From the IMG/VR virus record IMGVR_UViG_3300010354_000135, positions 1 through 49,740 of that record: a DNA stretch of 49,740 nucleotides; one strand, 5' to 3'. Below, piece after piece: positions 2,249-46,324 of this stretch. Numbering within the stretch: the first letter of the stretch is position 1; each line of letters opens with the position of its first letter. A program made the translations under genes and the position numbers. Source of the DNA: a virus. The notes beneath the pieces were generated by a model. It made no database searches. It was not told where the DNA came from and saw nothing but the letters and a program-made list of their open reading frames with translations.

Positions 2249-5200
2249 ATGCCTATTAATATCACTGCCGTAGGTGCAGCAGGCACTCACACTCTCCAAA
2301 AGCTCAACGTCAATATTGACGAGAGCTATATTTACTTTGCCAATCGCGACTCTGGCACTGCATTTCCTACTCAGATTACTGATGATTCTGCCTGGGTTCT
2401 TCGTGAGCCGTCAGGAGCGCTTACCGGTGTAAACAATGACACTGTCTATTTTTTGAATACCCTTGGTGCTGGAGAGACATCTCCATTTAGTATCCAGTTC
2501 TCTAACACATCCGGTGGATCTGCAATTACTTTAACCGGATTCACTGCTGGAGCCATAACTCTCAATTTTCCGTTCGTTTATCAGAACAACTTCAATATAT
2601 CTTCGGTTAAGTTCAATGACAGGCAGGCTGTTAGATACGTAACTAATGGAACTCCTATTACTGGACTTACCTCTGGAAGTACCTATTACGTAAGAAATCT
2701 TCTTACTGGCTTAGGTGGATCTTCTCTATACGAGTTCAATACTTTGGACTTTACAAGCGCTGGGGTTACAGGAAGAGTTGGACCAACTATCTCTCAGCTT
2801 AGGACAGCTTATGTAGCTGCTGGAGCTACATGGGCTAACACATACCTTAGTCAGGGAACTTTTCAGGGGTATCAGGATTGGACTGTTCCAGAGGATGGAA
2901 CGTATGAGTTCACTGTTAGAGGAGCTCCAGGTCGTCAAGGATCGGCACTAGGTGGCGGAGGTGCCATTGTCAAAGGGAGGGTTCGTCTCACAAGAGGTGA
3001 AATAATAACTATTGCTGTCGGTCAGAGAGGCGAGCTTCCAACTGCAAACTTTGTTTCGCCAGGATCTTCTGGTGCGTCTTTTGTAGTTAGAAAAACTGGA
3101 AACGTACCGCTGTTTGTTGCTGGTGGAGGATCAGCGTCATCTGGAACTAATAACGGTTTGAATGCGGTACTTACTACACGAGGTGGAACATCAACTACCT
3201 CTGTTGTAGGTGGAGATGCAGGAGCTGGAGCTTCAGCAAACGTATCAGGCGGTAGCGGTGGTGGATTCGTGTCCGCTGGAGCAGCTGCCACAGGTGCTCC
3301 AAACTCTCCTGGTGGTGGTGGTTTCAATAATGGTCTAGTAGGTGGACTAACACCTAATACATCTTCCGGTAGTGGTGGATTTGGTGGAGGTGGAGCCTCT
3401 GACGGGACAACTCCAACTTCTGGAGGAGCTGGAGGATACAGCGGTGGTGCGGCAAACACCGCAGTAGCAAATGCTCGTGGTGGTGGCGGTGGATCATTCA
3501 TCTTTGCTACAGCAACAAATGTCGCTACTTCAACTGGGCAGTTCAACGGCTCAAGCACATTTAATGGTGTTGCAATAACCAATCTCAACCAGTACAACAC
3601 AGGAGCAGCAGAAGGCTCAGTCACAGTAACTCTCATTGAGTCGTCAGTGTTTGGATTTACTCTTCATCCCAATGCTCTGAGTGCTAATAACAATACTGAT
3701 GTAATTTCAGTAACCCCAGCCGGAACTTCATTCCATTCATTCGTTCCGATCACACTTGATTCAGTGAACGAGACAATCAACCTAGTTAACGGTCATGGAT
3801 TCTTCAGTGGACAGCCGATCAATTACTTCTTTACTGGTACGGCGGCTAGCTCTTTGAATTCCACCACTGTCTACTATGCAGACACGGTAAATGACTACAC
3901 GTTTAGACTGAGCACTACTCCAGATCCTAGCTTTACTACAATCAACCTGACTACTCCTTCCAATACCACTGCAGAAGGATTCAGACCGGCTATTGTCAAT
4001 ACCTCTGCGGACTCCTTTACCATTTCTAATCACTCGTTCTTGGTCAATCAGCCAGTTCGATACAGCAATGGTGGAGGTACAAGCATCACTCCACTGCAGA
4101 ATAATGCAACTTACTACGTAAAGTCGGTACTGGACGCTAATCGATTTACACTGAGCCAGTCTTTGGATGGTCCAACCCTGGATATTACTGCTCCAGGAAC
4201 GGGGACAAATCACAGCTTTATCTTCACGGTGCTGAACGAGCTTGAGGACTCTATCTACATTCCGAGTCACGGCTACGTGTCAGGTCAAACTGTTCGATAC
4301 CAGAAGTCCAGAGATTTTGCTATTACCAGTATTACTGCCCAGCAGACTCCGACAAATCAGAGAACTGTTACCACCGCCACAGCTCACGGATTTATAACTA
4401 ATCAGAGAATTTCTTTTGATGCTTTCACTAGACCGAATACCGCCAATTCAGTATTCACGATAACCCAGATCTCCAGCTCAACTACTACCAGAACGGTAAA
4501 CACCTCTGCGGCTCACGGTCTAGTTGCCGGAAACTACATAACTATTGCTGGGTTTACTGGAGCCCCTGGAACAAGCACTAGAGGCGGGCAGTTCAATGGA
4601 ACCTACATTGTTGCCACTGCATCTGGAAACACTCTTACATTTACCGCTGAAGAGTCGATTACATTTACAACTGAAAACGTAACTGGAACTCCTACTCTTA
4701 CTAGAAGAGCAGACTACGAGTTCGTTGAGAATACTCGTCCAGTGGCAATAAGAAGTTTTGCCTCATCTGGTACGACAAGAACTATTGTCACTGCGGACCC
4801 ACATCAGTTTAATTCTAACGCAATCGTAACTATCAGTATTGTGCATTCGAATTCAGAACTTACTCGCTACTTCAACGGTACTTACACAATTACTGTTACA
4901 AACAGTAATACGTTTACGTATACAGGTGCTTATCAGGACCCTACAAACGCAGTCAACAGAGACCCCAGTATCACTATTGCTACTACTACCCCATCAGGCA
5001 CAGCTACTGCTACTAGAGAAATAGTTATTACAAGCACTCCCAGTAGCACCACATTTACTTATCTAATGCCTACTGCGTCCAACTTGAACATTCCAACAGC
5101 AGAAACAGCAACTGGACGAGTGTCGGCTACCTCCATTGCAACTACTAATAGGCAACTACTTGGGAGAACAGTAGGGGAAATTACTACTGGACTCAACCAC

Positions 5201-8200
5201 GGGTTGCTTGTTGGGGATAGATTCAGGCTGACTAACCTGACTGGAAACAATCAGGATGTCTTCAATGGGTCTTATCAAGTTGTCTCTATCCCGTCTACTA
5301 CGACAGTACGATTTACTGCTACTCCAAGCTCTAAGGCTCTTCTCAATAAGAGCATTACCTCAAACACATCAGCTCGCATTAACTGCAGCGTTCCGCATAA
5401 TCTAGTGGCTTCAAATCTGTTCTACCTAGAGGGAGTTAGCGGATCAGACACCGGATTCTGGGACGGAGACGTTAATATCATTAGCAGATCCAGTTCTGGA
5501 ACTACAAGGACTATTAACACTGATAATCCTCATTATCTATCTGCCAACAGCAGAATCAGAATTATCAGCATTACTGGCGACAATGCCAGTGACTACATAG
5601 GCGACTGGATTGTAGCCACAGCCCCAAGTGCAACTCAGATTACTCTCACTACTCGTCACGACGGGACAGCCGCAACTTCGCTATCTCAGCCATTAGAAAC
5701 CGTAACTGGTCTTCTATCCAGGGCTCAGACTGTGTCTTCGGTTCCTGCTTACACAATTCAGTCAAGATTCAAAACTGGAGCAGTAGCAGACATTACATTT
5801 ACCGCTGCTCATGATCTCCTTGTTGGCGAAACTATAAGAATTACCAACATTGGTGGAACATTCCCCGAGGAATTCAATGGTGATTACGTTATTACCGGAG
5901 TTCCAACAAGCACCAGAATTACCTTTAATTCTGCTGTAAACACTACTAGATCAGTTGAAACTGTCGGAGGAACGGCCACCGCCGTAAATCAGATCAGATA
6001 CACAATCCCTACGTTCACTAGAAACATCACAAATCGTCAACTGGTGTCGAATACAGTAGCTTCATACACTTCCCAGTTTGAGCATCAGCTTGCCGCAGGA
6101 TCAACAGTAACTTTAACTGGGTTTACTGGTAATCAAGCTTCCATATTTAATGGAACTTACGTAGTTGCGTCAACACCGTCATCGACCCAGTTCACTGTCA
6201 CACGACCACAGACTGCTGGAGTGACAACATTTACTGTCTCTAGTCGTCTTAAGACCGGAGTTTTTTGTGAACTAACCATCAGTGGTGGTCACGGAAATAA
6301 TATTCAACCTGGCAATACAATAACTGTTTCTGGGATGACTGGTCCTGATTCTAGTGTGTTCACTGGAACTTTTATTGTTTCAGCCGTACCAGACACTAAC
6401 AGAGTTACGTATTTCGTAAACGATCCAAACAACGTTTCTTCTCTCTCAGTAACAGCAAACGTTACATTGGATGTTGTTGCTGACGCTAGTGTTTCTGGTG
6501 TAACTGCTACTTTGAATACTGTTCCAACTACAACCACTACAGCTGGTGCGCTGTCGATATCTGAAGTCACTGCATCTGGTCAAGTTGGAGAGTTTTTCAT
6601 AGACACCTTGATTCCAGGATTAAGAAATCAAAACACTTATTATGTGTCTGTAGCAGATGCCAACACAATAAAACTATCTAGCACTAAAACTATAAGTCAG
6701 TCAACGATAGTGGACATTACTGGCGTTGGTATTGGATCTCATCAAATTGTTACTACGTCAATTGACTACGCAGAAAACAGTATTACTATTCCCGCTCACG
6801 GATTTACTGCTGGAGAGCTCGTAGAGTACGACACAGCTGGACAGACAGCCATAAGTCCTCTGTCTTCAGGAACTCCATATTACGTAATACCTGTAGACGG
6901 AAACACCATTAAGCTGGCTACATCAAGTGCAAATGCAACAGCTGGCACAGCAATAGATCTTACTACTGCTACTACTCCAGTTGGCCGTCATAGGCTTAGG
7001 TCCCTGATTAGGACACCTGACGGTACTTATACCATTTCAGCTGTTCCTACACCTACCACTTTTAATGTAACTGCTAGTGGTTCTGTTCCTACAATCACTA
7101 AGACATTCAACCCAAGAACAAATCTGAGCATTGACCAGAACTATATAAAGATCACTAATCACGGATTCCTTACTGGAACACCTGTCACATACTCAAATGG
7201 TGGTGGTACTTCTCTAGGCGGTCTTACCAACAGCACTGTTTACTACGTTATTGTCATAAACAAGGATCATCTAAGACTGGCGTCAACTGCCGACAGCGCT
7301 GACGCAGGCACCCCGGTGTCAATAACTACGTTCGGTGCGGGTGGTACGCACACTCTTACCAGCTCCCAGATTAATGGACGAGTAACTGGAACCGGCACAG
7401 TATCGACTACTGTTGGCTCTGTTCTCGTGAATGGATCAGGAACTCAGTTCTCTAAGATTCTCAAGGTTGGAGATGAATTCCGACTATTCCCACCAGACAC
7501 GGAGCAAATTTCGTTCTTCCAGTCTGCTGGCATAAACACCTCAACAGATGAAATAACAGTTCCAAATCACGGACTGACAACCGGTGAGAGCATTATCTAC
7601 TCTCCTGGATCCGGCGGTCCTAGGAGAAACATCTATCAAATTGCATCGTCTGGTACAACAAGAACTATAACCACCGCTGAGGCTCACGGATACAACGCTC
7701 TCGAAACAGTGACTATTAGTGGACTTAGCTCTGCATCTGCCGCCGATTTCAACGGTACGTTTACTATAGCTACAGTACCTAGCAGCACTACATTCACTTA
7801 CACTGCTACCAACAGCTTGACTCTTGCTACGGAAAATCAGACATCTGGAATTTCAACAAGAGTCGGTGTTGCTGGAACTGCACCAACTCCGCTTATCGAT
7901 GGTTACTACTACTTTGTTCGATCTATTCCAAATACGACTATCTCAAGCATTACCAACAGAGAGAGAACAGGAAACGTAATTACGTTTACTACTTCCTCAG
8001 CGCATAACTTGTTGCCAGGAAACGTAATAACAGTTTCAGCAATGACCGGAGCAAACCCAGAGCTATTCAATGGGACATTCACTGTAGTTAATGTTCCTAG
8101 CACTACTTCGGTAGTTGTCTACTCTTCTACCTCTGGATCAGTGGCTCCTGTTGGAGTTACAGGAACTCTTACTCCCGTTACCAGCAACACCATCAGACTG

Positions 8201-10918
8201 TTCAATACTCTCGCTGACGCGAATGCAAACACAAATGTTGTTGACATTCTCAACGCTGGATCAGGGTTTGCTCATAGGCTGACTAAGGTAATTCCCGCCT
8301 CGCCAATTGTCAGAAAGATCACCGCTATCGGATCTGACACTCAGATTACGGTCAACAGGACATACTCATCAGCGTTTACTGCAATTAACTACTCATATCC
8401 AACATTCGTTTATGTACGTCCACAAGGCTACTCCCTGCATAGGCCGTTTGACGGTGGAGTTGAGATGTCAACGGGACTCGGTACGTGGAATGGTCAAATA
8501 GTTCGTCAGACCAGAAAGTACTTCCGCTACCAGTCTGGTAAGGGCATTCAGACATCTGCTGGTATGAATTTTAAGCCTTCCATTGACATTGAAAGCATGA
8601 CAAGAGTTGGCAACTCACAGACTATTACGGCTCGAACTCGTAGACCTCATGGTCTTCAAAATGGACTGTTCTGCCGTATTGACGATGCAGTTGACTCCCA
8701 AGGAGTGACTAGCACTGTATATAACGGAACATTCCAAGTAACAGTTATAGATGCGTATAACTTTACATTTATCACTGCTGGAACAATAGTTGAGACCAAG
8801 GCGTATGGATACCCAAGACTCCACGTAACTGCGTGGACAAATGGAGCTCTTCGCGCTGGAATGTTCGACTTCCAGAACGGAATGTTCTTCGAGTTTGATG
8901 GTCAGAAAATCTACTGTGTAAGAAGATCCTCTACTCAGCAGATCGCTGGAACATGTGCCGCTCTGCAGGGTTCTGAGTTTGTCTTTGGAACTAATACTTC
9001 ATTCACCACTCAACTTTCTTCTGGGGATTACATAATTCTCAGAGGGCAGAGCTACAAGGTAACCGAAGTAACAAGCGATACTCGAATTTCGGTTCGCCCA
9101 GAGTTCAAGGGAGCTTCTGGAATAGAAAAGGAATTCGTACCAGGAAACGGAACTACTGGGGTTGTCAGAGTGGCAGTTCTTTCCGGAGGACTGCCGACTT
9201 CTACTACAAATCTATTCAATATACTTCAGCACGGATTTACTCAAAATCTTCCAGTTGTATACAACTCCATTGACGGAAGCGCTATTGGAGGCTTGGTCAG
9301 CGGAAAGACTTACTATGTTGATGTTGTAGATAGCAATAACTTCAGGTTAAAGGGATCACCAACATCTGCACAGAATGTCATCATCACTAGTACTGGCACA
9401 GGATCTCCGCATTCATTTACTCCAGCAAGAACTGGAATGATTGCAACTCTTACTGAAGACACAAGAGTTCCTCAGGAAAATTGGAATATCGATCCATGCG
9501 ACGGTACAGGTCCAACTGGTTACAATCTTGATCTTTCCAAGATTCAGATGGCCTATATGGATTATTCATGGTACGGAGCTGGAAAGATTCGCTTCGGATT
9601 TAAAACCACAGAAGGTCAAGTTCAGTACGTTCATGAATTCGTACATAATAATCAAAAGTACGAGTCTTACTTCCGATCAGGAAACCTTCCAGCAAGATAC
9701 GAAGTTACCACTTTTGATAATCCTACATACATTCCTGGACTATTTCACTGGGGAACTTCTGTAATAATGGATGGAAAGTTTGATGACGACAGAGCCTATC
9801 TGTTTACTAAGGCAAGTCAGAGCCTGAATATTGGAGGGACTACTGCCAAGACCTTTGGTACTAGCCAGATAAGCACTACTACCGATTTCTTGAGCATTCC
9901 TTCTCACGGATTCAGTACTGGAGATCTGGTTCAGTTCAGAGGAATTGGATCTGGAGGACTTGCTCAGGTTAATACTGACAACCCAGCTACAGAGCAAATC
10001 GCTGGTGTATACACTCAGTCAAACCTAACTAACGACTCAATCTACTCAGTAGTGGCTATTACTGCCAATCTTCTTGCACTCTTCCCACGACAGGCAGATG
10101 CAACTGCAACTCCAGCTACAATAACTAATATTTCCAAGAGTGCAAACGTAGTAACAGTAACCACGGCAGCAGCTCATGGATTTGTTGTAGGAGACTTGGT
10201 ACTGACCAATGTCAATACTCAGCCAGCCACTGTTCAGCTGGCTGTTGGAGGAGCAGCAAGAGTTACTGCTGTCACTACTGTAAGCCCATTCACGTATCAA
10301 TTTGTCAACACTAATGGGTCATCAAATATAAACTCTACTGCTACTGCCGGAACTGCTCTGAAGAATCCAATAAACCTGACATCAGTAGGAAATACTCAAG
10401 CTACATACGTAATAGCCCCGTCAGGAACTCTAAACAACACTTCTGGTCCTAGCTATCAGCCGCTTCTATCACTAAGACTAAGTCCATCTGTGTCAGAAGG
10501 ACTTACAGGAGGACTTGGCGAGAGAGATGTCATCAACCGAATGCAGTTGAGACTTCTGGAAATTGGTGTGGCAACCACTCAGCTGGTCGATGTAAAGCTG
10601 CTCCTCAATGCAAGACTTAACAATCTTAATTTTGTTGGAGTAACTTCCCCTTCTCTAGTTCAAGTAGTTGAGCACACCTCAAACGACACAGTTTCCGGAG
10701 GAATTCAGGTCTACAACTTCAGGGCTGGAGGTAGCGGAGGAAACGAGGCAACCACGACAGTGGATGTTACTGAACTCTTTGAGCTATCTAACTCAATACT
10801 TGGAGGAAGCAGCGTTTTCCCAGATGGTCCAGACATTGTCACTATTGCTGTGGCAAGACTTACAGGAAACTCAACGCTATCTTCAGCTAGAATATCCTGG
10901 AAAGAAGCTCAGGCGTAG
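2249..10918 (+). CDS. Giant modular tail fibre/virion structural protein, 2889 aa
   Basis: ATG at 2249 follows a strong ribosome site (AGAGGAG, 2233-2239). Domain order: an N-terminal B-type region (about 1-190); a glycine-rich domain (about 205-465) opening with WTVPEDGTYEFTVRGAPG, like the Gly-rich domains of phage fibres and ALK/LTK-type proteins; then a string of some 13 module A units (about 55 residues, FNGTY....VPS.TTFTY), about five complete module B units (YSNGGGTSI..L...TYYV..V) and module C units (GSGT.F...VGD). The C-terminal region (about 2065-2889) contains RQTRKYFRYQSGKG, DYSWYGAGKIRFGF, SGNLPARYEV and HWGTSVIMDG. The same series occurs in the protein at 15689-19012, so the two are paralogues. 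Some modules are nested inside others. There are no transmembrane segments. It is probably a long virion appendage or adhesin; where it attaches cannot be told from sequence. Confidence 0.85.
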   Translation: MPINITAVGAAGTHTLQKLNVNIDESYIYFANRDSGTAFPTQITDDSAWVLREPSGALTGVNNDTVYFLNTLGAGETSPFSIQFSNTSGGSAITLTGFTAGAITLNFPFVYQNNFNISSVKFNDRQAVRYVTNGTPITGLTSGSTYYVRNLLTGLGGSSLYEFNTLDFTSAGVTGRVGPTISQLRTAYVAAGATWANTYLSQGTFQGYQDWTVPEDGTYEFTVRGAPGRQGSALGGGGAIVKGRVRLTRGEIITIAVGQRGELPTANFVSPGSSGASFVVRKTGNVPLFVAGGGSASSGTNNGLNAVLTTRGGTSTTSVVGGDAGAGASANVSGGSGGGFVSAGAAATGAPNSPGGGGFNNGLVGGLTPNTSSGSGGFGGGGASDGTTPTSGGAGGYSGGAANTAVANARGGGGGSFIFATATNVATSTGQFNGSSTFNGVAITNLNQYNTGAAEGSVTVTLIESSVFGFTLHPNALSANNNTDVISVTPAGTSFHSFVPITLDSVNETINLVNGHGFFSGQPINYFFTGTAASSLNSTTVYYADTVNDYTFRLSTTPDPSFTTINLTTPSNTTAEGFRPAIVNTSADSFTISNHSFLVNQPVRYSNGGGTSITPLQNNATYYVKSVLDANRFTLSQSLDGPTLDITAPGTGTNHSFIFTVLNELEDSIYIPSHGYVSGQTVRYQKSRDFAITSITAQQTPTNQRTVTTATAHGFITNQRISFDAFTRPNTANSVFTITQISSSTTTRTVNTSAAHGLVAGNYITIAGFTGAPGTSTRGGQFNGTYIVATASGNTLTFTAEESITFTTENVTGTPTLTRRADYEFVENTRPVAIRSFASSGTTRTIVTADPHQFNSNAIVTISIVHSNSELTRYFNGTYTITVTNSNTFTYTGAYQDPTNAVNRDPSITIATTTPSGTATATREIVITSTPSSTTFTYLMPTASNLNIPTAETATGRVSATSIATTNRQLLGRTVGEITTGLNHGLLVGDRFRLTNLTGNNQDVFNGSYQVVSIPSTTTVRFTATPSSKALLNKSITSNTSARINCSVPHNLVASNLFYLEGVSGSDTGFWDGDVNIISRSSSGTTRTINTDNPHYLSANSRIRIISITGDNASDYIGDWIVATAPSATQITLTTRHDGTAATSLSQPLETVTGLLSRAQTVSSVPAYTIQSRFKTGAVADITFTAAHDLLVGETIRITNIGGTFPEEFNGDYVITGVPTSTRITFNSAVNTTRSVETVGGTATAVNQIRYTIPTFTRNITNRQLVSNTVASYTSQFEHQLAAGSTVTLTGFTGNQASIFNGTYVVASTPSSTQFTVTRPQTAGVTTFTVSSRLKTGVFCELTISGGHGNNIQPGNTITVSGMTGPDSSVFTGTFIVSAVPDTNRVTYFVNDPNNVSSLSVTANVTLDVVADASVSGVTATLNTVPTTTTTAGALSISEVTASGQVGEFFIDTLIPGLRNQNTYYVSVADANTIKLSSTKTISQSTIVDITGVGIGSHQIVTTSIDYAENSITIPAHGFTAGELVEYDTAGQTAISPLSSGTPYYVIPVDGNTIKLATSSANATAGTAIDLTTATTPVGRHRLRSLIRTPDGTYTISAVPTPTTFNVTASGSVPTITKTFNPRTNLSIDQNYIKITNHGFLTGTPVTYSNGGGTSLGGLTNSTVYYVIVINKDHLRLASTADSADAGTPVSITTFGAGGTHTLTSSQINGRVTGTGTVSTTVGSVLVNGSGTQFSKILKVGDEFRLFPPDTEQISFFQSAGINTSTDEITVPNHGLTTGESIIYSPGSGGPRRNIYQIASSGTTRTITTAEAHGYNALETVTISGLSSASAADFNGTFTIATVPSSTTFTYTATNSLTLATENQTSGISTRVGVAGTAPTPLIDGYYYFVRSIPNTTISSITNRERTGNVITFTTSSAHNLLPGNVITVSAMTGANPELFNGTFTVVNVPSTTSVVVYSSTSGSVAPVGVTGTLTPVTSNTIRLFNTLADANANTNVVDILNAGSGFAHRLTKVIPASPIVRKITAIGSDTQITVNRTYSSAFTAINYSYPTFVYVRPQGYSLHRPFDGGVEMSTGLGTWNGQIVRQTRKYFRYQSGKGIQTSAGMNFKPSIDIESMTRVGNSQTITARTRRPHGLQNGLFCRIDDAVDSQGVTSTVYNGTFQVTVIDAYNFTFITAGTIVETKAYGYPRLHVTAWTNGALRAGMFDFQNGMFFEFDGQKIYCVRRSSTQQIAGTCAALQGSEFVFGTNTSFTTQLSSGDYIILRGQSYKVTEVTSDTRISVRPEFKGASGIEKEFVPGNGTTGVVRVAVLSGGLPTSTTNLFNILQHGFTQNLPVVYNSIDGSAIGGLVSGKTYYVDVVDSNNFRLKGSPTSAQNVIITSTGTGSPHSFTPARTGMIATLTEDTRVPQENWNIDPCDGTGPTGYNLDLSKIQMAYMDYSWYGAGKIRFGFKTTEGQVQYVHEFVHNNQKYESYFRSGNLPARYEVTTFDNPTYIPGLFHWGTSVIMDGKFDDDRAYLFTKASQSLNIGGTTAKTFGTSQISTTTDFLSIPSHGFSTGDLVQFRGIGSGGLAQVNTDNPATEQIAGVYTQSNLTNDSIYSVVAITANLLALFPRQADATATPATITNISKSANVVTVTTAAAHGFVVGDLVLTNVNTQPATVQLAVGGAARVTAVTTVSPFTYQFVNTNGSSNINSTATAGTALKNPINLTSVGNTQATYVIAPSGTLNNTSGPSYQPLLSLRLSPSVSEGLTGGLGERDVINRMQLRLLEIGVATTQLVDVKLLLNARLNNLNFVGVTSPSLVQVVEHTSNDTVSGGIQVYNFRAGGSGGNEATTTVDVTELFELSNSILGGSSVFPDGPDIVTIAVARLTGNSTLSSARISWKEAQA
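2870..3640 (+). repeat. Glycine-rich domain coding region (GGGG-type)
   Basis: Within the 2889-residue fibre, this stretch codes for a glycine-rich fold: an opening beta strand (WTVPEDGTYEFTVRG), then VGQRGELP, many GG/GGGG turns, and a closing GGGGGSFIF followed by GSVTVTLIE. The layout matches the Gly-rich domain often placed at the start or end of phage fibres. Antisense it reads as a proline-rich open frame, which is an artefact. Confidence 0.65.
4310..10350 (+). repeat. Array of about 13 module A and 5 module B protein repeats
   Basis: Module A (about 55 residues) has the pattern TTxxHGF..G..V.I.G.......FNGTY.I..VPS.TTFTY. Recognisable units have their His-Gly cores near 4386, 4515, 4800, 5200, 5395, 5530, 5810, 6085, 6290, 7684, 8005, 8647 and 10176. 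Module B (about 75 residues) has the pattern I.I..HGF..G..V.YSNGGGTSI..L...TYYV..VD.N...LA.S with complete units around 3780, 4010, 6770, 7140 and 9205. Units are diverged at the DNA level, so the array is not a recent tandem amplification. In databases module A is often labelled as an E1 'FCCH-like' domain; I recall that label but could not check it. Confidence 0.75.
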
Positions 10919-15688: not shown

Positions 15689-18600
15689 GTGGCACGCAAG
15701 ACTCTCCAGGAAGTAACGTATACGTTTACTCCTTCAACTAGAATTATAACTATTCCTAAGATTATTCCTAGGGAGAGACTTCTGCTCATCACGAACGTGA
15801 CGAGCAATACGGTCATCTATAACTTCTCTGATCCAGCTCTAACTGCTACCCAGTATTACACGTTCAATTCTCCTGGAACTCTGTGGGCTGATCAGGAGAC
15901 ATACACCCTGAATCAGATAGTCAGTTTCAACAACAATCTCTATATTGTTACGACTGCTGGCACGTCTGGAACTACCCCACCCACCCACACTACAGGAGCC
16001 GTTACTGCCACTGGCGGCACTGCAGTTCTGACATTCTTCAAGACTGCACTTCCTCAGGGCACTGAGCAGACGCATATCGTCCTCAATTTCAATACTGCAG
16101 CGATGGCTGTTACCGACAAGCTTCAGATTGTCACCGAAGAAGCTGACGATACATTTCTTCCAGCCGAGTCTTATGTTGATCCTGTATCCAAGTTCAGGAC
16201 TTCCTCTCCTCAGTCCCTTATTGACACCGACTTCGAGTACGGCACCCAGCCGACCAAATGGGAAAGTCTTTCCCTTGTAGGAAACCGTCCATTTGCTTAC
16301 TTTGACGTAACTACGCCATTCGGTGCTACTGGTGGATCTTTCGGAGCTATCACAAACGTCTCAACCGCAGCTGGAAACCCAACAAGAACTGTCACAGTCG
16401 CTCACACAAGCGGAACTGTTCCCGTTGGAACTCCAATATTTCTTCAAGGAAACACGAACTCTGCTCTAAATGGATGGTTTACAGTAGAGACATCAGCATC
16501 AGCGTCTTTTACTTTCACTTCTCCGGTGCCCCTCGCAGCAAACACTTCGTTCTTTGACGCTACTAAGACATTTGGATATGTAGGAACGTTCTACTCTGGC
16601 TCAGTTGAGTCTGGGGATGGTGCAACCAGATGCGGAATTGGCGTATCTCTGACAGCTAACACAGCTTTTGTTGCTAGCACTCTTACAATGACAGGTGCTT
16701 CATCAAGTGGAACTACTGTCACAGTAGTCAGCACATTTGGTCTTGCCGTTGGAGCTCTTCCGACTATATCTGGAGGTACGGGAACATTTGCTGCTGGAAC
16801 CTTCGTGACTCAGGTTCTCAGCGACACTCAGTTCGTAGTAAACGTTGCTCCATCAGTTGCATTGTCAGCAGCAACAATAACTGTCCCTGTTGTTACAGTT
16901 ACTACTCTTGCTCCTCACGGTCTGTACGCTGGCAACTTCGTGTCTATCATAGGAACTACCGCTACTACCAACCCTCCGAATGGCAACTGGGTAATTGCAA
17001 CGGTCCCCACTGTCAATACGTTTACTATTAACGTCCTAAATGCTCCAACTGGTGGAAACATCACCCCCGCTGCCCTTTCTACATATAGAACTCTTTACTC
17101 CAGGTCTCTGGCGCAAAATGTCCACAGACCGTTTGATGGTGGAGTCAACTTCACTGTCGGGTCTACACCTTCAGCTGGTAATCAGCTGATTCGCCAGACT
17201 CGTAGATACTTCCGGTACCAGTCAGGTAAGGGTGTTCAGTTCTCTACTGGAACGATGTTGAAGCCTCTTTTCAATGTCAACTCCATTACGTCTTCTGGCA
17301 CGACTGCTACTGTAACTACCGCATTTCCTCACAACCTGCTTCCTAACGCTAGGGTTGTCGTTGGGGGATCTACTGACGTTGCATATAACGGAGTGTTTTC
17401 TGTAGCGTCTACACCAAGCCCGACGACATTCACTTACATCACAAGAACAGCTCCAGCAAACGCTACTGCACCAGGATTTCCTCTTCAGGTTGGACCTTAC
17501 AACTGGAGCGGATCAACTATTCGTCTCGGAATGTTTGACGACCAAAACGGCTTGTTCTTCGAGTATGACGGACAGCAGCTCTATGCAGTAGCAAGAAGAA
17601 GCACTGATCAAATCTCCGGAACTGTTACGGCCACAGTCGGATCATCGACTATCACTGGAAGCGGCACGTTCTTTTCAACTCAGGTACTGCCTGGAGACAT
17701 GCTGAACATCCGTGGAATGTCTTATCTGGTAACTACAGTTCAGAGTGATACTACTCTTACTATCTCACCGGAGTATAGAGGAACTGCCACCGTAAGCAAC
17801 GTAACCGTATCGCTTAGACGAGAGAGAAGATTCCCTCAGTCTCAGTGGAATATGGACAGGATGGACGGCACTGGTCCGTCAGGGTATGCCCTTGATCTTA
17901 ACAAAATCCAGATGTTCTACATGGATTATTCATGGTATGGCGCAGGTGCTGTCCGCTGGGGCTTCAAGGATCAGCGCGGCAACGTCATCTACGGCCACAG
18001 GCTTGCTAATGCTAACAATGAGTCAGAAGCGTACATGAGATCAGGAAATCTTCCTGCTCGCTACGAAGTTGGAACCAATCCAGCAACATATTCAATCCTT
18101 ACATCTACGCTATCTTCAGCTGCTACATCTGGACTTGTCCTGCAAGATGCGTCCCTATTCCCGAATAGTGGTTCGGTTATCATTAGCGGAAACACGTCAT
18201 CTGCTCCAATTGAGTATGTCAACTACACCTCAAAGTCCGGAAACACTCTTAACGGACTGACTCGTGCAGTTGCTGGCGGAAATATTGCTCCGCAGACATG
18301 GACGTACTCAGCAACTGCTCCGATAGGAGTTCGACTAGCAGGAGCGACGTTCAATCCAAGCGTCAGCCACTGGGGATCGTCTGTCATAATGGATGGTCGA
18401 TTCGACGATGATAAGCAGTTTATCTTCCAAGGCGGTATGAACTCTAGCGTTACAAACCTGCCACTTAACGGTTCGCTTAACCATGCCCTCCTGTCAATTA
18501 GACTAGCTCCCTCTGTTGATTCAGGACTAACTGGATTGCTTGGATCAAGAGATATTATTAATAGAATGCAATTGACAATGCAGACAACTGACGTTGCTCT

Positions 18601-19012
18601 AATTGCTGGAACCGCGAACACTATTGTTAGAATTCAGCTGATTCTCAACGGAAGATTTACTAATCCAGGTGCTTCAACTTGGCAGAACGTCGGAGGATCT
18701 TCACTGTCTCAAATTATGTTCCACCCAACGACTGGAACTTTGGCAACTGTAACCGGTGGAGAAACGATTTATTCGTTCTTTATTACTGTTCCAACAAGCT
18801 CAACCGGATATCTTACTCAAGATTTGACTAAAGTTCGCGATCTAGGAACTTCTATACTAGGTGGTGGAACTCTAGCAACTGGAAACACTACTTCGTCAAA
18901 TGTTTATCCTGATGGACCGGATATTCTTACGATTACTGCTTCTATGATTGCAGGTCAAAACAATGGAGGACAGATCAACGCTCGCATTGCGTGGACTGAG
19001 GCTCAGGCGTAG
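15689..19012 (+). CDS. Modular virion protein, paralogue of the 2889-aa fibre C-terminus, 1107 aa
   Basis: GTG at 15689, preceded by AGGAG (15678-15682) with seven bases spacing; the previous stop is one base upstream. The C-terminal 650 residues run in the same order as the C-terminal part of the 2889-residue protein: HRPFDGGV, RQTRRYFRYQSGKG, a module A copy, GMFDDQNGLFFEYDGQ, a module C copy (GSGTFFSTQVLPGD), QWNMDRMDGTGPSGY, DYSWYGAGAVRWGF, SGNLPARYEV, HWGSSVIMDGRFDDD, and an ending AWTEAQA matching SWKEAQA. Two further module A copies lie near 16340 and 16880. A unit near 18080-18330 is absent from the paralogue at that point. No catalytic motif was recognised. It is a probable tail or fibre structural protein; its exact position on the virion is unknown. 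Confidence 0.82.
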   Translation: MARKTLQEVTYTFTPSTRIITIPKIIPRERLLLITNVTSNTVIYNFSDPALTATQYYTFNSPGTLWADQETYTLNQIVSFNNNLYIVTTAGTSGTTPPTHTTGAVTATGGTAVLTFFKTALPQGTEQTHIVLNFNTAAMAVTDKLQIVTEEADDTFLPAESYVDPVSKFRTSSPQSLIDTDFEYGTQPTKWESLSLVGNRPFAYFDVTTPFGATGGSFGAITNVSTAAGNPTRTVTVAHTSGTVPVGTPIFLQGNTNSALNGWFTVETSASASFTFTSPVPLAANTSFFDATKTFGYVGTFYSGSVESGDGATRCGIGVSLTANTAFVASTLTMTGASSSGTTVTVVSTFGLAVGALPTISGGTGTFAAGTFVTQVLSDTQFVVNVAPSVALSAATITVPVVTVTTLAPHGLYAGNFVSIIGTTATTNPPNGNWVIATVPTVNTFTINVLNAPTGGNITPAALSTYRTLYSRSLAQNVHRPFDGGVNFTVGSTPSAGNQLIRQTRRYFRYQSGKGVQFSTGTMLKPLFNVNSITSSGTTATVTTAFPHNLLPNARVVVGGSTDVAYNGVFSVASTPSPTTFTYITRTAPANATAPGFPLQVGPYNWSGSTIRLGMFDDQNGLFFEYDGQQLYAVARRSTDQISGTVTATVGSSTITGSGTFFSTQVLPGDMLNIRGMSYLVTTVQSDTTLTISPEYRGTATVSNVTVSLRRERRFPQSQWNMDRMDGTGPSGYALDLNKIQMFYMDYSWYGAGAVRWGFKDQRGNVIYGHRLANANNESEAYMRSGNLPARYEVGTNPATYSILTSTLSSAATSGLVLQDASLFPNSGSVIISGNTSSAPIEYVNYTSKSGNTLNGLTRAVAGGNIAPQTWTYSATAPIGVRLAGATFNPSVSHWGSSVIMDGRFDDDKQFIFQGGMNSSVTNLPLNGSLNHALLSIRLAPSVDSGLTGLLGSRDIINRMQLTMQTTDVALIAGTANTIVRIQLILNGRFTNPGASTWQNVGGSSLSQIMFHPTTGTLATVTGGETIYSFFITVPTSSTGYLTQDLTKVRDLGTSILGGGTLATGNTTSSNVYPDGPDILTITASMIAGQNNGGQINARIAWTEAQA

Positions 19013-34836: not shown

Positions 34837-37422
34837 CTAGGTTAGCCAACCAGATCTGTAAAACACTCTAATTGCTGATTCACTGACGCTAGATCCAGAG
34901 TCTTCAAACTCAATAACATTTTCTCCCGGCTGAAGTGTTATAAAGTCTGCAAGAACATCTATTTTTCCTCGTGCTCCTACTGTTTCTCCGTTGAATGCCA
35001 CTTCTCGGTTATAGGTGTCAATTTCTAGGACATCTGCGTCAACTTTTGCAGTTGCCTTTGATTCATTAGCGCTAAGTCCAGGTGTAAATATGGTCTCGTT
35101 TTTCTTCACTGCCACACCTACGGCTTCAACACGGCTAATAGTTGTAGACACAGATGCAGTTCCAGGAGTTACGGCAAATGCAAGATCTCCACCAGAAGTG
35201 GCAGTAGCTCCTGTAGGAGTTTCTTGCGATACTGATCCATTCACGGAAGCGAATCCAGTGTATATAATTGCGCCGTCTCCAGCTGATCCACCCGAGAGAT
35301 TTGCTGCAGTCTGACTAAACCTGATTTGAGTGTTACTTGGGACAGCGGTGATTGTCTTGGCTCCGTTGGTGATCCCATCTACTTTGTATGTATTAATAAC
35401 GTCGCCTACAGCAAATCCATGAGGATTAGACAGAGATAGTGTTGCAACATTAGCGTCTATAGACCTCTGAGACACAGAAAAATATGTCTCAACTGCAGGA
35501 ATGTTTGTTCCACTTGATTTTGTGTAGCTAAATGTATTGTCGGTGACAGCTGTAATTACGTAAGTTCCGTTAAAAGTAGATTTTAGTCCAGAAACAGTAA
35601 CTGTCTCACCTACGTTGAATCCGTGAGAAGTTCTAGTAGCGAGTGTGGCAACACTTCCAATTAGCGAGTTACTCGTAATCATGAGTCTGCTTCCATTAGC
35701 GAAGCAGTTGGACACTGTAGTTGGGATTATGGTTGAAGGTACTATGCCGTATGAAAAAGTGGTAGAGCTAGGAACTTCAGTGATTACAAAAGATCCGTCA
35801 AATGGTATACCTACTCCCGACACAACTACTGTCTCATTTACAGCCAATCCATGAGGAGTAGAAGTGGTTAGAGTGGCAGTTCCTCCTGCTCCCGACTTTA
35901 CGATAATTGGGACACGATTAGATCTGACTTTGAGAAAAGTAAAAGTACTTGAGCTAGGCACAGAATTTACAAGGTAGGAGCCATTATAAGTACCTGATGC
36001 TCCGGAAATAGATATTGATTCTCCGACAACGAATCCGTGACTAGCAGCAGTAGTTATAGTGGCCACTAAGTTCGTCATGCTAGTTGCGGATATGGCTCTT
36101 TGAATATTTCTTAGTTTTGCGTAGCTAAACTGCAGTCCATCATTTGATATTGATGTGATCGTGTAGCTACCGTTGTAATTAACATCATTTACACCAGCAA
36201 TTGTCACAGTCTCACCTACGACAAAATTGTGAGGAGCTGTAGTAGTTATAGTTGCAACATTTGCGACAATTTTTGATCCCGAAATTGTAGCCGCAGGAAC
36301 TCTTGTTTTTGCGTATGTAAATTTGTTTGTTGATGGGACACCAGTGACTGTGTAGTTCCCATTGAATATGGGATCAACATCAGTTATGAATACAGTATCT
36401 CCCACTGAAAGACCGTGAGTACTCAATGTTTCTATGGTAGCAACAGAGTTGAGAAGTTGTTTAAAAACTACCTGACTAACTATAGAAACGGGAGTAAGTG
36501 GACTATAAGTAAAAGACAGAGGAGTTGGTATTGATTGGATTGTGAAGACTCCGTTGAATTGACTCTCCGGGACTCCAGACACCGACACACTGTCCCCTAT
36601 GGAGAAGTTGTGGATGTTGGATGAATAGATCGTGGCTATGTCCACAAGAGATGCCTCATCGAACTTCATTTGACGAGCTTCCAAGAACGTTTGTTTGGTC
36701 CCTAGAAGAGTGTCTGTTATCAGAATAAGTTCGTTAGAAGTTCTATTAAAAATTTTAGCTGGACCTTTTAGAGGACCAAAGACTTCAAAAATAACTGGAA
36801 CTGGATAGTTTCCAATATTAGTAATGATCTTTTCCCCGGAACCAGAGATATTTATGTTCTTAGCTGAGAACTCTTCAATAAAATATCCCTCAGGGTCAGC
36901 GTCATTCCACTCGTACTTAATTGGATCTACAGCTCTGAGTCCTATAGAAAAATCTGTTCTTCCTCTGGCATTTACAGTAGACATGGTGACTGGACCGGTT
37001 ACACGGACCCAGGAGGCTCTAATTGGATTAGAGCCAGTCTTCAGCCAGCCTCCCTTATAGACAAGATTAATCGATTCGGTAAGCCTATCGCGAGCAGCTT
37101 CTACGAGAGAGGGATCGGAAGTAAGGATAGATCCATTTAGAACTAGACTTCTTGCTTTGTATCTTCCTTTTACATCGTATGACCCGTCTCCGTATCCACG
37201 AGGAATATCCGGGACTTCAGGTTCTGGGACACTCCACCAGCCTTCAATATCAGTTACAACCCACACAACACCAAACTCATCAATGGTATTGAGTAGAAAT
37301 CCATTGATACTGATATCTCTGGCAAGCTTCATTCCAGTTAGGTGAGGAAGCGGAAGAGGCTTCAGAGACCCACGAGTTTTTGTGAATTCGTAGTCTTGAC
37401 TGTAAAAGCTTTCAGTTGTCAT
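34837..37422 (-). CDS. Distal tail (Dit)-like protein with seven inserted module A copies
   Basis: An 861-residue protein. The first 240 residues (LARDISINGFLLNTIDEFGVVWVVTDIEGWW; LVLNGSILTSDP; VDPIKYEW) match the Dit/minor-tail family that follows the tape measure in actinophages. The C-terminal 100 residues (NREVAFNGETV...ADFITLQPGENVIEFED) match the usual Dit end. Between them lie seven module A units (His cores HNF/HGL/HNF/HGF/HGL/HGF/HGF, positions 36608 down to 35420), so a family normally of about 250-350 residues is more than doubled. ATG overlaps the tape measure stop (TAATG). It would form the ring at the tail tip, with modules displayed outward. Confidence 0.85.
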   Translation of the reverse strand: MTTESFYSQDYEFTKTRGSLKPLPLPHLTGMKLARDISINGFLLNTIDEFGVVWVVTDIEGWWSVPEPEVPDIPRGYGDGSYDVKGRYKARSLVLNGSILTSDPSLVEAARDRLTESINLVYKGGWLKTGSNPIRASWVRVTGPVTMSTVNARGRTDFSIGLRAVDPIKYEWNDADPEGYFIEEFSAKNINISGSGEKIITNIGNYPVPVIFEVFGPLKGPAKIFNRTSNELILITDTLLGTKQTFLEARQMKFDEASLVDIATIYSSNIHNFSIGDSVSVSGVPESQFNGVFTIQSIPTPLSFTYSPLTPVSIVSQVVFKQLLNSVATIETLSTHGLSVGDTVFITDVDPIFNGNYTVTGVPSTNKFTYAKTRVPAATISGSKIVANVATITTTAPHNFVVGETVTIAGVNDVNYNGSYTITSISNDGLQFSYAKLRNIQRAISATSMTNLVATITTAASHGFVVGESISISGASGTYNGSYLVNSVPSSSTFTFLKVRSNRVPIIVKSGAGGTATLTTSTPHGLAVNETVVVSGVGIPFDGSFVITEVPSSTTFSYGIVPSTIIPTTVSNCFANGSRLMITSNSLIGSVATLATRTSHGFNVGETVTVSGLKSTFNGTYVITAVTDNTFSYTKSSGTNIPAVETYFSVSQRSIDANVATLSLSNPHGFAVGDVINTYKVDGITNGAKTITAVPSNTQIRFSQTAANLSGGSAGDGAIIYTGFASVNGSVSQETPTGATATSGGDLAFAVTPGTASVSTTISRVEAVGVAVKKNETIFTPGLSANESKATAKVDADVLEIDTYNREVAFNGETVGARGKIDVLADFITLQPGENVIEFEDSGSSVSESAIRVFYRSGWLT
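35310..36645 (-). repeat. Seven module A units within Dit-like gene
   Basis: Consecutive units of 50-65 residues with pattern ATI.T..HGF.VGETV.ISGV...FNGSY.I..VPS..TFTY. They alternate with short Ser/Thr/Ile linkers. This is the densest minus-strand cluster of the module that also fills the plus-strand fibres. Confidence 0.8.
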
Positions 37423-45280: not shown

Positions 45281-46324
45281 TTATGCGGTTGGATCGACCG
45301 CCGAATTGATGATGAAGTCAATCGGCTGATCGGCGTTGTAATCCTCGTTGCCAGGAACGTTGAACGCTGTGTCGGATGCTCCAGCAATTGATGTCACAGC
45401 GGCGTAGCCCTTCTGACGAACAGCTGTTCCTACTGGGCTGACAGCAGTAGATGTAACATCAGTAGCGTTCTTTGAGTAGCGGAACTGTGTTGTTGACGGA
45501 ACCGCTGTGATTGTGTACGTACCATTGAAGGTCGAATCAACACCAGCGACCACCACGGTCTGGCCGACGGAGAATCCGTGAGCAGATGTTGTGGTTAGAG
45601 TTGCAATGTTAGATGTCAGGGACTTGTTGTTCACGCTGGCAGCAAGATCCTTGTGCCATGTGTAGAAGCCCTTGAGACCTGTTGGTGCCCACGAAGAGCG
45701 AGCGTATGAGTACGAGCGCTCGGTGGCAACTGGCCACTCCCAACGTCCGTCTAGTCCAGTGTCGAACGTAACGTTTCCAAGGCCGTAGCCCTCGAACGTT
45801 GTCGCAAGCATTCCGTTCTCAATCACGCGGTCACCGGACTGACGTAGACGGCAGTAGGGGAAGACCCAGTGGAAGTAGGGAAGTGTTGATGCGCGGCGTC
45901 CATCCTTGACGGCGAAGGACCAAACCTCAAGAGCAACGCCATTTCCTGTGGGATCATCACCAACTGAAGGTGCTGACCAACCGATGCTCTTATTGTCTGG
46001 TGATGCAAACGTACCGAAGTTCTTGCGAAGAAGCAGACCTCCTGAAATGAGCGCTGTTAGCTCTGAGTCTGGCTCACAGATGGCAAGCTCCATCGTGATC
46101 CGCTTCATGGTGTCGGGAGCCTTATAAGACACGCACACTGTGCCGTCCGCAGACTTCTCAACGATTTCGTCACCCTCCTCATATTCGGGGGTGAAAGATG
46201 CACGCATAAACGCCGAAGTGGTGTAGCTGTCCCCTGCGGAGTTCAGCAGGTTTCCAGCGGCGTCCAGTCTTGTGACTCGGATCGCCACACCTTGGACGCT
46301 CGCCGCGTAGTCCTGTGTGGGCAT
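45281..46324 (-). CDS. Major tail protein with a C-terminal module A
   Basis: A 347-residue tail tube protein. It is early in the structural block and has a good ribosome site (AGGAGATAGAA before ATG 46324). Residues 1-230 (VAIRVTRLDAAGNLL; RASFTPEYEEGDEIVEKSADGTVCVSYKAPDTMKRITMELAICEPD; LEVWSFAVKDGRRA) fit the actinophage major tail protein family. Near the C-terminus there is one module A (ATLTTTSAHGFSVGQTVVVAGVDSTFNGTYTITAVPSTTQFRYSK), followed by about 45 residues. In tube proteins of other phages, C-terminal Ig-like domains decorate the tail surface, so the module would be present in every tube ring. Confidence 0.85.
   Translation of the reverse strand: MPTQDYAASVQGVAIRVTRLDAAGNLLNSAGDSYTTSAFMRASFTPEYEEGDEIVEKSADGTVCVSYKAPDTMKRITMELAICEPDSELTALISGGLLLRKNFGTFASPDNKSIGWSAPSVGDDPTGNGVALEVWSFAVKDGRRASTLPYFHWVFPYCRLRQSGDRVIENGMLATTFEGYGLGNVTFDTGLDGRWEWPVATERSYSYARSSWAPTGLKGFYTWHKDLAASVNNKSLTSNIATLTTTSAHGFSVGQTVVVAGVDSTFNGTYTITAVPSTTQFRYSKNATDVTSTAVSPVGTAVRQKGYAAVTSIAGASDTAFNVPGNEDYNADQPIDFIINSAVDPTA
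45424..45633 (-). repeat. Single module A in the major tail protein
   Basis: One unit of the HGF..G..V.VAGV..TFNGTY.I..VPSTT.F.Y type, the same as in fibres, Dit-like and hub genes. It uses more G and C at third positions than the fibre copies, like its host gene. Confidence 0.8.

Follow-up and report, generated by a model that had tools for sequence, protein, structure and literature searches.

Probable three-level nesting of domain insertions in a large tailed-phage virion protein, with stages of the nesting found in relatives

Does a repeat-rich segment of a phage structural protein consist of small domains that follow one another, or have its modules been inserted into one another? This question is raised by an open reading frame (ORF) of 2889 residues in the window, by which we mean the whole stretch of 49,740 bases, an IMG/VR phage record, that was analysed. 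The reading that we favour, and consider very probable, is that domains have been inserted into one another at three levels in this large tailed-phage virion protein: a module C is interrupted by a module B, which is itself interrupted by two modules A that were added to it later. We have chosen to refer to this arrangement as C(B(A,A)), and to simpler forms as C(B), C(BB) and C(BBB). A 2026 survey describes nested insertion over several levels as the minority case, and its showcase is the six-level SI3 of cyanobacterial RNA polymerase (PMC13114784).

The host protein and its genome

The gene set of the record is siphophage-like and includes major head, head-tail adaptor, major tail, tape measure and Dit-like tail proteins, as well as a DNA polymerase and a helicase. 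Collagen-like fibre genes adjoin the ORF that carries the nested modules:

2249 to 10918, + strand: ORF of 2889 residues, virion structural protein with a phrog_5838 core

Besides numerous small beta modules, this ORF contains a glycine-rich domain and the conserved virion core, which was matched by phrog_5838 downstream of C (PHROGs, E 5e-136, best stretch residues 2053-2292). A second, shorter version of the phrog_5838 virion protein is encoded by the same phage. This paralogue of 1107 residues, at 15689-19012, shares the core but lacks the split C-B-A segment; its C is undivided.

The glycine-rich domain, at residues 215-441 (2891-3571), matches ALK_LTK_GRD (PF12810) above the cut-off, here within a phage virion protein. 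The closest named relative is from Actinomycetia phage DSL-LC01, where it was deposited as 'ALK tyrosine kinase receptor', a name that probably reflects the glycine-rich domain alone and is misleading. DSL-LC01 is an uncultured phage from a lake, with a predicted actinobacterial host (PMC10611076). After the ALK/LTK-like domain, a piece resembling the second half of B is found at residues ~471-502 (3659-3754), with no first half directly before it.

Layout of the nested segment

The segment and the undivided copy of C are laid out as follows:

7376 to 7504, + strand: first half of C, residues 1710-1752 (C2-profile model 6-34, E 6e-7; alignment)
7517 to 7612, + strand: first part of B, residues 1757-1788 (B-profile model 1-23 at 1766-1789; undivided in relatives lacking A)
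7613 to 7870, + strand: insert A1, between B strands 2 and 3, residues 1789-1874 (absent in 21/21 relatives lacking A; A profile E 4e-15)
7871 to 7927, + strand: middle strand of B, YYYFVRS, residues 1875-1893 (B-profile model from 23; contiguous with the other B parts in relatives lacking A)
7928 to 8179, + strand: insert A2, between B strands 3 and 4, residues 1894-1977 (84-residue gap in 21/21 relatives lacking A; A profile E 7e-8)
8180 to 8284, + strand: last part of B, residues 1978-2012 (B-profile match to model 75)
8300 to 8398, + strand: second half of C, residues 2018-2050 (C2-profile model 43-60 at 2023-2040; joined halves, hhalign)
8930 to 9127, + strand: undivided second copy of C, residues 2228-2293 (profile)

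The limits of the two inserts are the gap limits common to the 21 relatives that lack A, within one residue. The first-pass annotation had described, for 7378-8395, a C interrupted by B and a B interrupted twice by A. All the peptides that it quoted are present and in frame in the ORF at 2249-10918, and the interruptions themselves were borne out by undivided-copy profiles and by the relatives lacking A, with refined coordinates. Undivided copies elsewhere do align with the halves of both B and C.

Relatives and the order of insertion

A scan of IMG/VR returned 80 loci. In 21 aligned relatives, B is a continuous module of roughly 85 residues inside C, and all 21 show gaps against the window at 1788/1789-1874/1875 and at 1894-1977. 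The comparison with homologues lacking the A units, which the first-pass annotation had proposed, thus found B uninterrupted at exactly the two points where A is inserted here. Both A modules are present in 16 other aligned sequences, and in other relatives the same loop of C holds a tandem of two or three B modules. The forms C(B), C(BB), C(BBB) and C(B(A,A)) can therefore all be read directly in sequences. Among the 64 distinct sequences available after further scans, the insert in the C loop falls into three discrete size classes, of ~100, 190-219 and 270-299 residues, the longest of which includes C(BBB) as well as C(B(A,A)). Within this set, no insert of a size between the classes was found, and neither was an orthologue of the split C without B (insert size zero). 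A search of a genome collection returned four partial matches to B-like stretches, in bacterial contigs.

With regard to the order of the insertions, a tree was built from the conserved core, for which distant C(B) rows and rows with the core alone served as outgroups. On it, the C(B(A,A)) sequences all fall, together with three truncated ones, into one clade (98/96) within the C(B) diversity. C(BBB) also forms a single clade, and two changes are required to account for C(BB). Since the B(A,A) clade is nested in C(B) and the distant outgroups are C(B) or core-only, B would have entered C first and A would have entered B later, in line with the successive insertion that had been proposed for this segment. 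The addition of A after B is the most likely order, its weakest point being the root, as the outgroup branches are long. The second, undivided copy of C and the variable number of B modules in the loop (1, 2 or 3) suggest that B entered an ancestral undivided C. In the mechanism that we propose, C is a small beta domain directly before the conserved phrog_5838 core, and one loop of C takes one to three B modules, depending on the lineage. In one lineage, B would later have gained two A modules, in the loops between strands 2 and 3 and between strands 3 and 4.

The reverse history, in which C(B(A,A)) is ancestral and most lineages cleanly deleted both A modules, would be expected to leave the same picture if two exact deletions took place, and it would fit the observation that the B(A,A) sequences found all carry two A modules, no single-A intermediate having turned up. 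We nevertheless regard it as improbable, given that B(A,A) is confined to one clade inside the C(B) diversity, that the distant outgroup, podophage ctQRb9, is C(B), and that several lineages would each need two clean excisions.

In the ORF of L091 (Synechococcus phage S-BM3), at residues ~850-1340, B-like inserts are apparently present in at least two places before the same core. This suggests that insertions took place independently in cyanophages.

Joined halves and predicted structure

The C profile was built solely from the undivided second copy of C (2228-2293) and its orthologues, and includes no split-C sequence. Its model positions 6-34 match residues 1715-1743 and positions 43-60 match residues 2023-2040, so that both halves of C are present in order and without overlap. 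The C-terminal half alone scores weakly against this undivided-C profile (1.6 bits). When the two halves were joined, they aligned with the undivided C family with an hhalign value of 96.8% and an E of 2.5e-10. In a window scan of the whole protein, the true second half of C was equalled or beaten solely by windows that overlap the undivided C or duplicate the N half.

An earlier B profile included one seed from the C site, and the test was redone without this seed, with a profile of undivided copies in other contigs. Against this profile, the three B pieces scored 19.1, 0.8 and 17.2 bits apart and 48.8 bits when joined, whereas the uncut B stretch, with the A modules left in, scored 21.5 bits. 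The A profile, whose seeds were all A repeats from two further proteins of this phage, matches residues 1806-1853 (E 4e-15) and 1909-1954 (E 7e-8).

AlphaFold, run on residues 1707-2063 with alignment input, returned a mean pLDDT of 91.3 and a pTM of 0.76, and its confident strands coincide with the B and C pieces placed by alignment. B and C would fold from their separated halves, and the A modules would protrude from B as side branches. For residues 656-1506, which lie upstream, the values were 88.3 (pLDDT) and 0.73 (pTM).

These results bear on the reading in which the segments fold in order as separate small domains, like beads on a string, the likeness of the pieces to B and C being an accident of repeat-rich sequence. 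The protein is indeed rich in weakly similar beta repeats, and the A, B and C profiles are faintly alike (hhalign, A against B 13-33%, A against C 68%). Separate beads are very unlikely, however, as the middle piece of 19 residues is joined to both ends of B in one continuous module in the 21 relatives, as the B pieces score 48.8 bits when joined against 21.5 bits for the uncut stretch, and as the AlphaFold prediction is confident across the whole stretch.

The A modules are absent from relatives at exact points, as mobile or intein-like cargo removed from the mature protein would be, but we give this reading hardly any weight: the inserts are in frame, they consist of A-type beta modules, which tail proteins of this phage contain as well, the G+C of the A inserts is that of the remaining ORF, and Pfam reported no mobile-element or intein domain. 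Since no DNA repeats of 24 bases or more were found between modules, the modules are old.

Other split B modules in the same protein

Three B copies in the ORF host inserts, in three different loops overall, and two further copies just upstream of the nested segment are undivided:

4247 to 6757, + strand: second split B, residues ~667-687 and 1453-1503 (B-profile 2-32 and 25-76)
6776 to 7369, + strand: two undivided B modules, residues 1510-1587 and 1630-1707 (B profile E 3e-31 and 4e-30)
9881 to 10405, + strand: third split B, residues ~2545-2719, with A in a later loop (A-profile match 2633-2683)

In one loop (residues ~688-1452), the second split B holds A-type modules that amount to ~765 residues; the total length at this site in relatives is 85-96 residues. 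As to the third split B, A is absent in the relative L046 and present in the relatives L084 and L082. Together, these sites form a natural series of loops accepting inserts of ~85 to ~765 residues.

Nesting of A in A was considered within the 765-residue chain (residues ~706-830 and 1040-1175). It is not claimed, as what might be the last strand could just as well open the next A, and the same arrangement is present in every long relative. Between the two undivided B modules, at residues ~1588-1620 (7010-7110), lies an orphan second half of A (DGTYTISAVPTPTTFNVTASGSVP), the first half of which was not found. This half is conserved even in the distant ctQRb9.

Fold likeness and possible function

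A Foldseek search against the PDB returned no match to the whole segment. Among local matches, the FCCH domain of ubiquitin E1 is the best specific one, and phage endosialidases are also listed. The viral matches are long, mostly uncharacterised phage proteins with low TM-scores. A-type modules match E1 FCCH with a Foldseek probability of 1.00 over roughly 90-115 alignment columns, which makes E1_FCCH (PF16190) their best specific structural match, although the phage protein has no ubiquitin chemistry. The Pfam model gives 38.4 bits for the whole protein against a cut-off of 29.5, with its best stretch in the third split B; it does not match A1 or A2 in isolation. FCCH is itself an inserted beta barrel, and inserted domains such as E1 FCCH have their two ends close together. 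Repeated insertion of a module would be possible if its two ends lie close together.

With regard to endosialidases, the End_beta_barrel model (PF12195; phages K1F and phi92) scores 14.8 and 13.6 bits in its matches to A1 and B, far below the cut-off of 35, and this weak sequence match is accompanied by a fold match. In contrast to endosialidases, no propeller or stalk fold was found in the phage protein. The endosialidase barrel contains a sialic acid binding site (PMC12632334). That the modules here may bind sugars is a guess, prompted by the likeness to this barrel, the sub-threshold Pfam scores and the low-TM Foldseek matches.

The PHROG virion and tail annotation, the neighbouring collagen-like fibre genes, the occurrence of A in Dit-like and major tail proteins and the Foldseek matches all bear on function. 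From these, we infer a surface appendage, presumably placed close to the tail or neck. The simplest reading is that of a long, branched, non-enzymatic appendage, whose many small modules would serve as spacers, or would make contact with the host surface in the manner of a multivalent adhesin, possibly by binding sugars.

We also entertain a broader idea, which is possible but somewhat doubtful: A, B and C might be remote members of one superfamily, and phage appendage proteins might in general acquire side branches through the repeated insertion of small FCCH-like modules into loops of distantly related modules, with loop additions and chain-end swaps exploring host contact. Common ancestry of A, B and C is not claimed, given that the hhalign signals between them are weak.

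Comparison with known systems

Like SI3 of RpoC2 (PMC13114784), the segment consists of small beta modules that are repeatedly inserted into one another, in an A1-B1-C-B2-A2 pattern and with hosts that take several inserts. SI3, in contrast, belongs to a cellular enzyme and reaches up to six levels, whereas three levels are found here in a phage virion protein, of which nature also offers the staged forms C(B), C(BB), C(BBB) and C(B(A,A)). The searches made gave no sign of homology between the phage modules and SI3. Nested insertion as such is already known; the phage appendage setting, with its stages preserved in nature, is new, and a limited search of an incomplete literature collection returned no description of nested insertion in phage appendage proteins. 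As successive states coexist in related phages, the insertion order, the tolerance of loops and the folding of split beta modules become directly testable. Split modules of this kind will escape a linear annotation of domains in giant phage proteins.

Ig-like decoration domains are small beta domains that are spread between unrelated phage virion and tail proteins, usually at chain ends or in single loops and not several levels deep. The A modules, also small beta domains, resemble them in being spread between virion proteins, but have a different fold and are nested. A single A unit lies near the C-terminus of the major tail protein encoded at 45281-46324 (- strand), and a tandem array of A lies inside the Dit-like tail protein encoded at 34837-37422 (- strand).
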